From Alphaproteobacteria bacterium (GTDB lineage: Bacteria > Pseudomonadota > Alphaproteobacteria > GCA-2731375): DNA of 51,431 nt. Positions 37,290 through 42,216 of the stretch are shown here, piece by piece. The notes beneath the pieces were generated by a model. It searched no databases. It saw only the letters and a program-made list of their open reading frames with translations, and had not been told where the DNA came from. Position numbers and translations under genes: made by a program. Positions within the stretch are counted from its first letter, which is position 1; each line of letters opens with the position of its first letter. Where the stretch lies: contig JAPYPT010000004.1 of the NCBI GenBank assembly GCA_029937535.1, forward strand, positions 1 through 51,431. Direction: 5' to 3'.

Positions 37290-37892
37290 GTGTTTTTCAT
37301 GACCACAATCGGCATTCTATTTTTTGACGGCACCGAGGAACTGGACGCCGTGGGACCGTGGGAAGTTTTCACCATGGCGGCGGCGCAACGGGACGAGATC
37401 AAGGTGATAACAATCTCGGAACGGGGCGGCACGGTGCGCTGCAACAAAGGCATGCGGATCGAGATGGACCACAGTTTCGCCGATGCGCCGAAGCTGGATG
37501 TATTGTTGGTGCCGGGCGGCCAGGGCACCCGGACGGAGGTCGACAATCCCGAATTATTGGCCTGGATCGCGGACGTCGCGCCCGGCTGTCAATGGGTTAC
37601 CTCCGTGTGCACGGGTTCATTGTTACTGGCGGAGGCGGGCCCGGCGGCGGGCAAGCGCATCACCACGCACTGGGGCGCCATCGATATGGTGCGCAAGCGG
37701 GGCAAGGCGGGCGAGGTGTTGGAAAACATCCGCTATGTGCGCGACGGCAACGTGGTCACCTCCGCCGGGGTGTCGGCGGGCATCGACATGGCCTTGTGGC
37801 TGATGGGGGAGATGTATTCCCCGGACTTCGCCCGCAGCGTCCAACGCAACATGGAATACGATCCCGCGCCCCCTTATGCGGCCGAGGTTTGA
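37290..37892 (+). CDS. DJ-1/PfpI family protein
   Basis: TIGILFFDGTEELDAVGPWEVF, VTSVCTGSLLLAEAG (nucleophile elbow). Confidence 0.93.
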   Translation: MFFMTTIGILFFDGTEELDAVGPWEVFTMAAAQRDEIKVITISERGGTVRCNKGMRIEMDHSFADAPKLDVLLVPGGQGTRTEVDNPELLAWIADVAPGCQWVTSVCTGSLLLAEAGPAAGKRITTHWGAIDMVRKRGKAGEVLENIRYVRDGNVVTSAGVSAGIDMALWLMGEMYSPDFARSVQRNMEYDPAPPYAAEV

Positions 37893-38860
37893 TGCCGCAG
37901 CCAATAGAGGAAGATCTCTCCACGCCCATAAACCTGCCGGATATGAGCGGCCTGGACCTGGATTTCGATATTATCGATTGTCACCACCATTTGTTCGATT
38001 TGGGCGCCGTCCATTACCCCTGGCTGACCGATCATCCGGAAGAGAACTTTCTGCTGGGTAACTATGACGCCTTGAAACAGGACTATGGCCCCGATGACTA
38101 CCGTGCCGATGCGGGATCGTTGCGTGTGGTGAAAACGGTGCATGTGGAGGCCGAAGCGAACCGCGCCGGTCAGGTCGCGGAGACCCGGTGGTTGACCGGC
38201 GTCATGGCCCGGGACGGTCTGCCGGACGCCATCGTGGCCCATGCCTGGCTGCATCGCGCCGACAGCGAAGAGGTGCTGGCGGCCCAGGCGGCGTTCGACG
38301 CGGTGCGCGGCATTCGCAGCAAACCCCGCACGTCCGCCTCCGCCGCCGAACGTGACGGCGTCCAAGGCCAGCCCGCCAGCATGCAGGACCCCGCCTGGCG
38401 CGAAGGGTTGGGGTTGTTGGGGAAGTATGATCTGTCGTGGGATCTGCGCGTGCCGTTTTGGCATTTGTCAGAGGCGGCGGAGGTTTGCGCGCTGTACCCC
38501 GATTTGCCCATCGTCACCGAGCACACCGGCCTGGCCTGGGACCGCAATGAGGCGGGCCTGGCCGAATGGCGCCGGGGCATGGAGGCGTTGGCGGCCATGG
38601 AGCATGTGCATCTGAAGATCTCGGAACTGGGCCTGGCCGGCGCGCCCTGGGACTATGAAGACAACCGGCGCGTGGTGCGGGAGGCGATCGAGATCTTCGG
38701 CTTCGAGCGTTGCATGTTCGCCTCCAACTTTCCCGTCGCGGGGCTGCGGATAGGTTACGTGGATCAGGTAAGCGCCATCGCCCATATGATCAAGGACTGC
38801 TCCGACGCCGAGCGGGCGGCGTTGTTCCATGATACTGCGAAGCGGTTTTACCGCCTTTAA
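37892..38860 (+). CDS. Amidohydrolase family protein (amidohydrolase 2-type)
   Basis: ATG at 37892 overlapping the DJ-1 stop; FDIIDCHHHLFDLGAVHYPWL, C-terminal RCMFASNFPVAGL. The listed 500-aa ORF start is out of frame over the DJ-1 gene. Confidence 0.9.
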   Translation: MPQPIEEDLSTPINLPDMSGLDLDFDIIDCHHHLFDLGAVHYPWLTDHPEENFLLGNYDALKQDYGPDDYRADAGSLRVVKTVHVEAEANRAGQVAETRWLTGVMARDGLPDAIVAHAWLHRADSEEVLAAQAAFDAVRGIRSKPRTSASAAERDGVQGQPASMQDPAWREGLGLLGKYDLSWDLRVPFWHLSEAAEVCALYPDLPIVTEHTGLAWDRNEAGLAEWRRGMEALAAMEHVHLKISELGLAGAPWDYEDNRRVVREAIEIFGFERCMFASNFPVAGLRIGYVDQVSAIAHMIKDCSDAERAALFHDTAKRFYRL

Positions 38861-38905
38861 TCACGCGTTTTCGGCAGTTCGAAATCCGCCGCCCGCTCCA
38901 CGACA
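38858..38905 (-). pseudogene. Duplicated 3'-end remnant of the adjacent dehydrogenase gene (VVERAADFELPKTRD*)
   Basis: 44/48 identical to 39019-39066; all four differences are synonymous third-position changes. Confidence 0.85.
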
Positions 38906-38909
38906 AACC

Positions 38910-39006
38910 GTCATCCCCGGGCGTAGCGAAGCGGAGACCCGGGGATCCAGGGCCGCAAACACCTGAGTTTGTTGCCCTGGATTACCGGGTCGAGCCCGGT
39001 AATGAC
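38910..39006. repeat. Alphaproteobacteria-style composite palindrome (GTCATCCCCGGG...CCCGGTAATGAC)
   Basis: CCCCGGG/CCCGGGG hairpin (38915-38944), ATCCAGGGC/GCCCTGGAT stem (38945-38982), ATTACCGGG/CCCGGTAAT hairpin (38981-39003). Confidence 0.85.
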
Positions 39007-39017
39007 TCTAAATTGAA

Positions 39018-39914
39018 CTAATCGCGCGTCTTCGGCAGTTCGAAATCGGCTGCCCGCTCCACGACACGGAGGATTTCGCTCAAATCGCCATTCCCCAGGC
39101 CCATGGCCAGGGCCTGGCGCATGGTTTGATAGGTGGCGGCGGCGACGTTTTGCGGGACTTCCAGGCGTTCGGCTTCCATGCGCCACAGCATGGCGTCTTT
39201 TTCAATGATGTGCATGGGCGCTTCCATGTTGAAGGCCCGGTTCAGGATAAAATTGGGCACCTTGCTCAAGGTGGCGCTGTTCTGGCCGGAGCCGGAATTC
39301 ATCACGGCCAGGGCCTTTTCGGGATCAACGCCGCCCTTGGCGGCCATCACCAACGCCTCGCAGGCGATCACCAGGTTGGTGAAGGACATGATGTTGTTGG
39401 AAATCTTGACCAATTGGGCCTGCCCGACCTCCGCGCCCACATAGTGAATATCGCGGGCAAAGGATTGCAGGAAGGGTTCAACCTGGTCGTAGACCGCCTG
39501 GGGGCCGGATGTGACCACGGTGATGTCGCCATCCCAGGCCCGCTGCACGCCGCCGGTGATGGGGCTATCCAGCATGGCGATGCCTTTTTCCGATAGTGCG
39601 GCTTCCACCGCGGCCACTGCTTCGGTGCCCATGGTGCCCAGGTTGACGAAGGTTTGCATGGCGCCGCCCGCCAACACGCCGTCAGCACCGGAAACGATGG
39701 CGTGAAAGCTGTCGATGGTGGGCATGCAGGCGAATACGACCTCGGCCTCGTCCGCCACCTCCCGTGGCGAGGAGAGGATGCGCGCCTGTTTGTCGGCCAA
39801 GGATTTCGTCGCCTCGGGATTGATGTCAAAGACCGCCAGGGACTTCTCCTGATCCAGTACATTGCTCGCCAGGGGTAACCCGATACTGCCCGTTCCGATA
39901 AATCCCGCCTTCAT
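39018..39914 (-). CDS. NAD(P)-dependent oxidoreductase, 3-hydroxyisobutyrate dehydrogenase family
   Basis: MKAGFIGTGSIGLPLASNVLDQEKSLAVFDINPEATKSL, MLDSPITGGVQRAWDG, KISNNIMSFTNL. Start placed at the ATG at 39914. Confidence 0.92.
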   Translation of the reverse strand: MKAGFIGTGSIGLPLASNVLDQEKSLAVFDINPEATKSLADKQARILSSPREVADEAEVVFACMPTIDSFHAIVSGADGVLAGGAMQTFVNLGTMGTEAVAAVEAALSEKGIAMLDSPITGGVQRAWDGDITVVTSGPQAVYDQVEPFLQSFARDIHYVGAEVGQAQLVKISNNIMSFTNLVIACEALVMAAKGGVDPEKALAVMNSGSGQNSATLSKVPNFILNRAFNMEAPMHIIEKDAMLWRMEAERLEVPQNVAAATYQTMRQALAMGLGNGDLSEILRVVERAADFELPKTRD

Positions 39915-39999: not shown

Positions 40000-42216
40000 G
40001 TGTTCTTTACGACAAGAAATAACCAGCGGCCCTATCATCTTGGCGGATTTCCATTGGAGACCTTGCCCCGCGACGACAGCATCGTGGCGGAGGAAGCGGC
40101 CCGCCCGCCTGTCCTCGCGCCGAACTATGAACGCGCCGCCGATGGCCCCCTGGCCCGCTCCCTCCGCGGCTACCTGGAAATTTTCATCGAAACAGCCATG
40201 CGGGAGTCGGCGGGGGCAGAGGCGCCGGTGCCGGACGATCCCCACCGGCGCATGGTGGATGTCAAGGGATACGGTTATTTCATGAACGCTTCCCAGGTGG
40301 GTATTTGCCGCATTCCGGCCAATGCCTGGACCTCTGATGGCGGGCCGGCTGAGCATGCATTCGCAGTCGTTTTGTTGTTGGAACATGGCCGGGTGCCGGA
40401 GGCCGATAATCCGGCGGCCGGGTGGATCGCGCCGGCCCTGGCAGAGGCGGGGGATGCCCGTATCGGCGGCATTGCCGTCTGCCTGTCCGGGCACATTCAA
40501 AAGATGGGCCATCCCGCGGCGGCCCATGTCATGGGCGCCGGCGATCTGGATCTGGATCGCCTGGCGGTGCTGGCCGGGCTGGCCGTGCGGGACGGAGATC
40601 GTCTGCGCAATCCCTTCATCAAGGCTGGGTTTTCCATCGCGGCGGTCTCGACCTCTTATGGGCTGGAAACCGACCGGCCCTTGGCGGGGGCGGCATTGGG
40701 CGGCTTGGGCCTGGGTTATTGGCTGGGCCGGAACGGCGCCACGTCGGGGCGGGAACGCAACCGCCGGGCCGGGCGGGCGAGCCATCTCAGCGCCTATGCC
40801 ATGGAAACGGTGCCCCGGGTGGATCGCCCGACCACCTTGATTCTGGACGACGAGGTGCCCCGGGTTTCCAAACGCGCGGCTTTTTTCGACCGCGCCATGC
40901 GGGGCGATCTGGGTCCCAAGGCCAAGAAAGAGCGTAACCGCTTCGCCTTCAAACAACCCCATACCGCCGGCATGATGGCCTCCATGCGGGCCATGGTGCC
41001 GATCCAGGGCGGCGAACCAGCGGCCGATGCCACGCCGGGGGATTATGACGACCCGGCTGCCAACGCACGGGCGCTGAAGTCGCTATCCTACCTGCTGGGC
41101 GCCGATCTGACCGGCATTTGTGAAATTCCCAGATACGCCTGGTTCTCCCACGGCGCCAAGGGGGAGGAGATCACGCCCTATCACAAATATGCCGTGGTCA
41201 TGCTGATCGACCAGGAGTTCGACACCATGGAAGGGGCGGCGGGGGATGATTGGATTTCCGGCACCCAATCCATGCGGGCCTATTTGCGCGGGGCCGAGAT
41301 CGCCGGCGTCATGGGCGATACCCTGCGCCAGTTGGGCTTTCCGGCCCGTTCGCAAACCAACGTGGACAGCGATGTGCTGCATATCCCCCTGGTCTTGTGG
41401 GCCGGCCTGGGGGAATTGTCCCGCATTGGCGAATTGGTCCTCAACCCCTTTGTCGGGCCGCGCTTCAAATCCGTTGTGCTGACCACGGATATGCCCCTGG
41501 AAGTGGACAAACCGGTGGACTTCGGGCTGCAGTATTTCTGCGAACATTGCACGAAATGCGCCCGGGAATGCCCCTGCGATGCGATCTCCTGGGGCGCCAA
41601 AATCATCTTCAACGGTTACGAGATGTGGAAGCCGGACGCCGAACGCTGCGCCCGTTACCGCCTGACCAACGCCAAGGGCTCGGCCTGCGGCCGGTGCATG
41701 AAGACTTGCCCGCTGAACAAGGTGGTGACGGCCGATGGCCCTGTCCTTGAACGCATGGCCTCGTGGTGCGGCATCAATGCCCGCTGGCTGAAGCCAATCT
41801 TGGTGCCCATCGCCGTCTGGTTGGATGATTATCTGGGCAAGGGCCGGCGCAACCCGGTAAAGAAATGGTGGTTCGATCTGGAAGTGGTGGACGATGTCTG
41901 TATCGAACCCGTCAAGGGCGTTAGCCAGCGGGATCTGGACGTCGGCCACAAGATCGATCCCGCGAAACAAAAGATGGCCTATTACCCCGCTTCCATGATG
42001 CCCGTGCCCAACGATCTCAACGCCCAGCCGGTCGACCGCAAGGCCGCCATGGCCATGGGCGAGGTGCTGGAAAGCCCCATCACGGCGGCCATCCGGGCCG
42101 GCCGGGGACAGCCCGCGCCCGGCCATAATGCGCCGACGCCGCCCGATCCGAATGGTCCCAAGGGGCAGGATATCAAACCCACCGTTTATGGCACGGCAAG
42201 GGCGGAAAAAGGTTGA
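40000..42216 (+). CDS. Reductive-dehalogenase-domain protein with two Fe-S motifs, no Tat signal
   Basis: YFCEHCTKCARECPCDAISWG (CX2CX2CX3C, from about 41539) and CARYRLTNAKGSACGRCMKTCPLNK; AGLGELSRIGELVLNPFVGPRFKSVVLTTDMPLE. GTG start after GGAGG. Confidence 0.85.
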   Translation: MFFTTRNNQRPYHLGGFPLETLPRDDSIVAEEAARPPVLAPNYERAADGPLARSLRGYLEIFIETAMRESAGAEAPVPDDPHRRMVDVKGYGYFMNASQVGICRIPANAWTSDGGPAEHAFAVVLLLEHGRVPEADNPAAGWIAPALAEAGDARIGGIAVCLSGHIQKMGHPAAAHVMGAGDLDLDRLAVLAGLAVRDGDRLRNPFIKAGFSIAAVSTSYGLETDRPLAGAALGGLGLGYWLGRNGATSGRERNRRAGRASHLSAYAMETVPRVDRPTTLILDDEVPRVSKRAAFFDRAMRGDLGPKAKKERNRFAFKQPHTAGMMASMRAMVPIQGGEPAADATPGDYDDPAANARALKSLSYLLGADLTGICEIPRYAWFSHGAKGEEITPYHKYAVVMLIDQEFDTMEGAAGDDWISGTQSMRAYLRGAEIAGVMGDTLRQLGFPARSQTNVDSDVLHIPLVLWAGLGELSRIGELVLNPFVGPRFKSVVLTTDMPLEVDKPVDFGLQYFCEHCTKCARECPCDAISWGAKIIFNGYEMWKPDAERCARYRLTNAKGSACGRCMKTCPLNKVVTADGPVLERMASWCGINARWLKPILVPIAVWLDDYLGKGRRNPVKKWWFDLEVVDDVCIEPVKGVSQRDLDVGHKIDPAKQKMAYYPASMMPVPNDLNAQPVDRKAAMAMGEVLESPITAAIRAGRGQPAPGHNAPTPPDPNGPKGQDIKPTVYGTARAEKG

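Follow-up and report, generated by a model that had tools for sequence, protein, structure and literature searches.

Between two convergent genes of the window (the whole stretch of DNA analysed here, 51,431 nucleotides of an alphaproteobacterial genome), the 3′ end of a dehydrogenase gene is present twice, and the two copies are separated by part of a mini-transposon (MITE). We interpret this arrangement, with a probability of about 0.6, as a scar left when two diverged dehydrogenase alleles recombined, with one end of the MITE as the point of joining. The locus is probably a real and well-explained recombination scar, and a single case. The scar is unusual, but made by already known processes, and it constitutes a readable fossil of an exchange between diverged alleles with a specific breakpoint, at which the end of a mini-transposon met a chance look-alike within a gene.

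A repeated dehydrogenase end between convergent genes

The plus-strand gene at 37892–38860 encodes an L-fuconolactonase-like protein of the amidohydrolase_2 family (Pfam PF04909, E = 1.1e-33; NF052480 under cut-off). It converges with a complete minus-strand gene at 39018–39914, ending in TAG, which encodes a 3-hydroxyisobutyrate dehydrogenase-like protein with NAD_binding_2 and NAD_binding_11 domains (PF03446, PF14833) and which we designate allele B. This resident dehydrogenase is the sole close copy in its genome, and a search of the same genome for a second allele yielded just paralogues with identities of 31% or less. It is adjoined by a reductive dehalogenase-like protein (40000–42216; TIGR02486 slightly under cut-off) that is kept in two congeneric genomes, G004 and G009.

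The final 16 codons of another allele, here called A, lie on the minus strand at 38857–38905 and end in TAA. Comparison of 38858–38905 with 39019–39066 reveals a 48-bp direct repeat with an identity of 44/48 and a start-to-start spacing of 161 bp, in agreement with the earlier note on this DNA, and the E-value of 1.5e-16 obtained in the flank comparison excludes a chance origin. In their codon registers (38857–38904 for the remnant and 39018–39065 for the resident gene), both copies translate to VVERAADFELPKTRD*, that is, 15 residues and a stop. Counting the stop, they differ in five codons (GCG/GCA, GCG/GCC, AAA/AAG, CGT/CGC and TAA/TAG), all of them through synonymous changes at the third position, as had been noticed for the coding part. 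The overlap between the remnant stop (38857–38859) and the amidohydrolase stop (38858–38860), also described in the earlier note, amounts to two shared bases. The 113 bp separating the two copies are MITE sequence, and a hairpin with 25-nt arms is situated between them.

Among eleven genomes of the genus searched for the amidohydrolase–dehydrogenase neighbourhood, the two genes are adjacent in three. G009 (L022/L049) has just one dehydrogenase end, whose stop overlaps that of the amidohydrolase exactly like the remnant; in G004 (L021/L048) the single dehydrogenase end is followed by a gap of 18 bp to the amidohydrolase. Both genomes keep the C-terminal YRL* of the amidohydrolase and neither carries an insert. 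Given these uninterrupted loci and the overlap in G009, the remnant preserves the older layout, to which a further gene end and the palindrome were added. The proposal that the genes abutted tail to tail before the insertion is hence borne out, and the single gene end anticipated for relatives lacking the palindrome is indeed present in both genomes.

The 3′ flank of the resident gene and the 3′ half of its coding sequence lean towards G004. The bases following the resident stop (TAGTTCAAT) are similar to the G004 type (TAGATCAAA), and the remnant shows the G009-type stop overlap. Identity of the resident dehydrogenase to G004 is 88% over the 3′-terminal ~490 bp, and 90–91% in the 3′ half versus ~81% in the 5′ half. 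A clean phylogenetic breakpoint within the gene was sought by identity comparison, which yielded only this change in similarity to G004, located around 39500.

The MITE family and its copy in the window

The palindrome belongs to a dispersed element, truncated at this locus, that has matches at about 40 places in its own genome at 80–98% identity. The alignment of 27 copies with their flanks defines a typical length of 144 bp and 14-bp terminal inverted repeats (TIRs; CACRCTACACGACA and TGTCGTGTAGYGTG), for which the pattern has 43 matches, versus 4 for a reversed control pattern. Target duplications measure 9 bp, are perfect in six copies (L003, L009, L012, L015, L017 and L093) and reach at least 7/9 in several more. 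Short, non-coding, bounded by TIRs and flanked by target duplications of fixed length, the repeat family is a MITE family. The full element (TIR and core) was found only in its own genome among 15 genomes of the bacterial family, and related cores are present in congeners. A parent transposase or autonomous element was sought through TIR pairs in the own genome and the genus, where several contigs break at the repeat, and none was recognised; an Rfam search returned chance-level matches only, and a literature search on the MITE or its core motif found no papers.

Several copies show features of their own. L003, L009, L012 and L017 seemingly lie inside another dispersed repeat, with flanks like AGAGCAA...TTAATC and TTGCTCTA, which suggests nested repeats or a target preference. 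The flanks of L002, L016 and L020 are nearly alike (CATTTGAACGC and TTTGATCT), as if these copies had been inserted into copies of one further repeat. A short form (L130; G000:C225:2796-2882), which spans about 87 bp between the outer ends of its two TIRs, is probably an internal deletion, and L085, with good TIRs (11/14 and 13/14) and an absent target duplication (3/9), may have arisen when MITE copies recombined with one another.

In the window, the MITE body occupies 38906–39017. According to the 27-copy alignment, it retains its core and its left spacer (AACC) in full (38906–39006), its right spacer (~39007–39017) is degenerate, and the right TIR and the target duplication are missing; the core is 98% identical to that of copy L002/L077. 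The position of the left TIR (38892–38905, plus strand) is occupied in register by gene sequence of the remnant, CCCGCTCCACGACA, which agrees with the TIR in 11/14 positions and is identical to it in the last seven bases, CACGACA. An in-register match of at least 11/14 has a chance probability of ~4e-5, and the 48-bp repeat thus starts exactly where the TIR is expected. On the right side, similarity to the MITE is lost some 12 bases short of the dehydrogenase stop. Read as an insertion, the interval 38892–39035 is not an intact one: the left TIR position holds gene sequence (11/14), the right position agrees in 7/14 bases and the duplication in 1/9. The same 14 bases occur a second time, in direct orientation, inside the resident gene (39053–39066, plus strand; DNA search). 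We also considered a transposon using the TIR-like site of the gene as one of its ends, and rejected it since the two sites are direct and not inverted.

A duplicated gene end with an intact gene on one side is the kind of arrangement left by elements that integrate into gene ends, and the earlier note had accordingly suggested an attL/attR-like restoration of the gene end. That the locus is the relic of an integrative element, with the end restored by a site-specific recombinase, seems to us highly improbable. The insert, which measures 161 bp with the repeat included, is a copy of the 144-bp-type MITE without one terminal repeat, and it contains neither an integrase gene nor a 9-bp target duplication, whereas the family inserts through its TIRs with just such a duplication. 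Moreover, none of the 26 other MITE copies, three of which had short left flanks, shows the duplicated gene ends that the note had proposed to look for around other palindromes, with one weak 22-bp match at L007. The duplicated end is better understood as incidental to a recombination event at a sequence resembling a terminal repeat than as gene-end restoration, and the locus as probably a single scar, with no sign of a general mechanism.

The left junction also bears on an origin in the metagenome assembly, whereby alleles of two strains, or two MITE-bearing loci, would have been misjoined. The genome is a draft in 534 contigs, several of them ending inside MITE copies, and the window MITE has up to 47 identical bases in common with another copy. 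But the remnant and the MITE share only about 7–8 bases at their junction, a stretch too short for an assembler to overlap on, and this junction should accordingly sit within real reads; a MITE-mediated misjoin, for its part, would still require a genome in which a MITE was fused to the remnant. We consider such a chimera unlikely.

Relative age of the MITE and the gene ends

The window MITE has no private base in its core (0/100) with respect to the 26 other copies; the third-position divergence of the gene ends is 5/16. Had a single event in one genome produced both the repeat and the MITE junction, the MITE and the gene ends would be of one age. At half the divergence of the gene ends, ~15.6 private core changes would then be expected, and the Poisson probability of observing none is 1.6e-7. 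The synonymous-only pattern of the gene ends has a probability of ~0.001 on the assumption that every change hit a non-coding remnant, and of ~0.01 on the assumption that both copies changed; taken alone it is moderate evidence, and the absence of private MITE mutations is stronger. It follows that the divergence of the gene ends is older than the join, unless MITE copies convert one another. Gene conversion among copies could make an old copy seem young, and is the main escape from this argument.

The amount of divergence is in keeping with separate alleles. Between species, the third-position divergence of the dehydrogenase ranges from 0.24 to 0.50 per 50-codon block, and over the same 16 codons this gene end differs from G004 or G009 at 9/16 third positions (counted by eye). 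With 5/16 lying below the latter value and within the former range, the gene ends resemble alleles from sister lineages that diverged under selection. The synonymous changes and the unchanged MITE core together make it probable that the two copies derive from two functional, diverged alleles, as the earlier note had put forward.

The repeat might otherwise have arisen in situ, the MITE joining at the TIR-like site of the gene and 48 bp being duplicated, by aberrant transposition or template switching, with the copies diverging later. One genome and one event would suffice for this, and the edge of the repeat does coincide with the TIR. We nevertheless hold it to be rather improbable: divergence after the join is hard to reconcile with a core devoid of private changes, a non-coding remnant ought to have acquired non-synonymous changes too, and the target duplications of the family are 9 bp long, not 48. 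Unequal crossover in situ between sister chromosomes that both carried the order dehydrogenase–MITE–amidohydrolase should have placed another MITE in front of the amidohydrolase, and there is none.

Proposed history and related systems

In the recombination between alleles that we favour, one parental chromosome would have carried dehydrogenase allele B followed by the MITE, and on the other, allele A would have lain directly against the amidohydrolase, a layout seen in relatives (G009) and here attributed to the parent. During DNA uptake or exchange, the terminal repeat of the MITE (...CACGACA) would have been joined to the CACGACA located in the terminal part of allele A, at a distance of 48 bp from the stop codon; the second crossover would have fallen in ordinary homology elsewhere. 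The product would consist of a complete B gene, a MITE without this TIR and, next to the amidohydrolase as before, the final 16 codons of A. Neither gene would be disrupted, and the hairpin would become a spacer between them. The parental arrangements (B followed by an intact MITE, and a complete A) were not found, and the 48 bp are all that survives of allele A. The missing right TIR calls for a second event or for a MITE damaged beforehand, and since the full element was found in just one of the 15 genomes of the bacterial family, whichever parent bore the MITE must have been a near relative outside the sampled genomes. The earlier suggestion of allelic replacement at a repeat comes close to this account, two diverged alleles being the probable source of the copies.

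The microhomology shared at the junction (CACGACA, 7 bp; 11/14 over the TIR) is within the range of homology-facilitated illegitimate recombination (HFIR), which combines one homologous end with one illegitimate end, mostly at 3–10 bp of microhomology, and is known from Acinetobacter, Pseudomonas stutzeri, Streptococcus and E. coli (PMC3240628). We infer a two-allele origin with a microhomology join through an HFIR-like route; the rarity of HFIR relative to homologous recombination counts against that route. As in HFIR, one junction lacks long homology, the other exchange presumably took place in normal homology, and foreign DNA would have been inserted beside a homologous anchor. Unlike in HFIR, the window locus is known as a scar only, almost nothing has been deleted and the gene end has been retained.

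Orphan gene ends have been proposed to arise by displacement in the T6SS immunity arrays and Rhs tips of Vibrio cholerae, where old 3′ parts are kept behind a new module (PMC5361080). There, as here, the incoming allele would take the place of its predecessor, whose 3′ part stays behind downstream; the window locus differs in involving a metabolic gene, in retaining just 16 codons and in having a MITE end as its breakpoint. Known from one case, in a draft assembly of metagenome type, the scar is a minor curiosity; were such scars to recur, they would tie the origin of hybrid loci to MITE load. It is doubtful, and in our estimate quite improbable, that allele exchange recurrently uses the terminal repeats of MITEs as breakpoints, such that chance TIR-like gene sequences let a MITE-tipped incoming gene be added with the old end kept and MITE-rich genomes gather hybrid loci with intact genes.

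With bacterial MITEs such as MITEAba12 (PMC6382973), the family shares its short, non-autonomous form, TIRs, target duplications and many copies; the window copy departs from these elements in lacking a right TIR and in having gene sequence as its left one. Its hairpin has a folding energy of -60.8 kcal/mol and an RNA-fold z of -6.1, and may act as a two-way terminator between the convergent genes.
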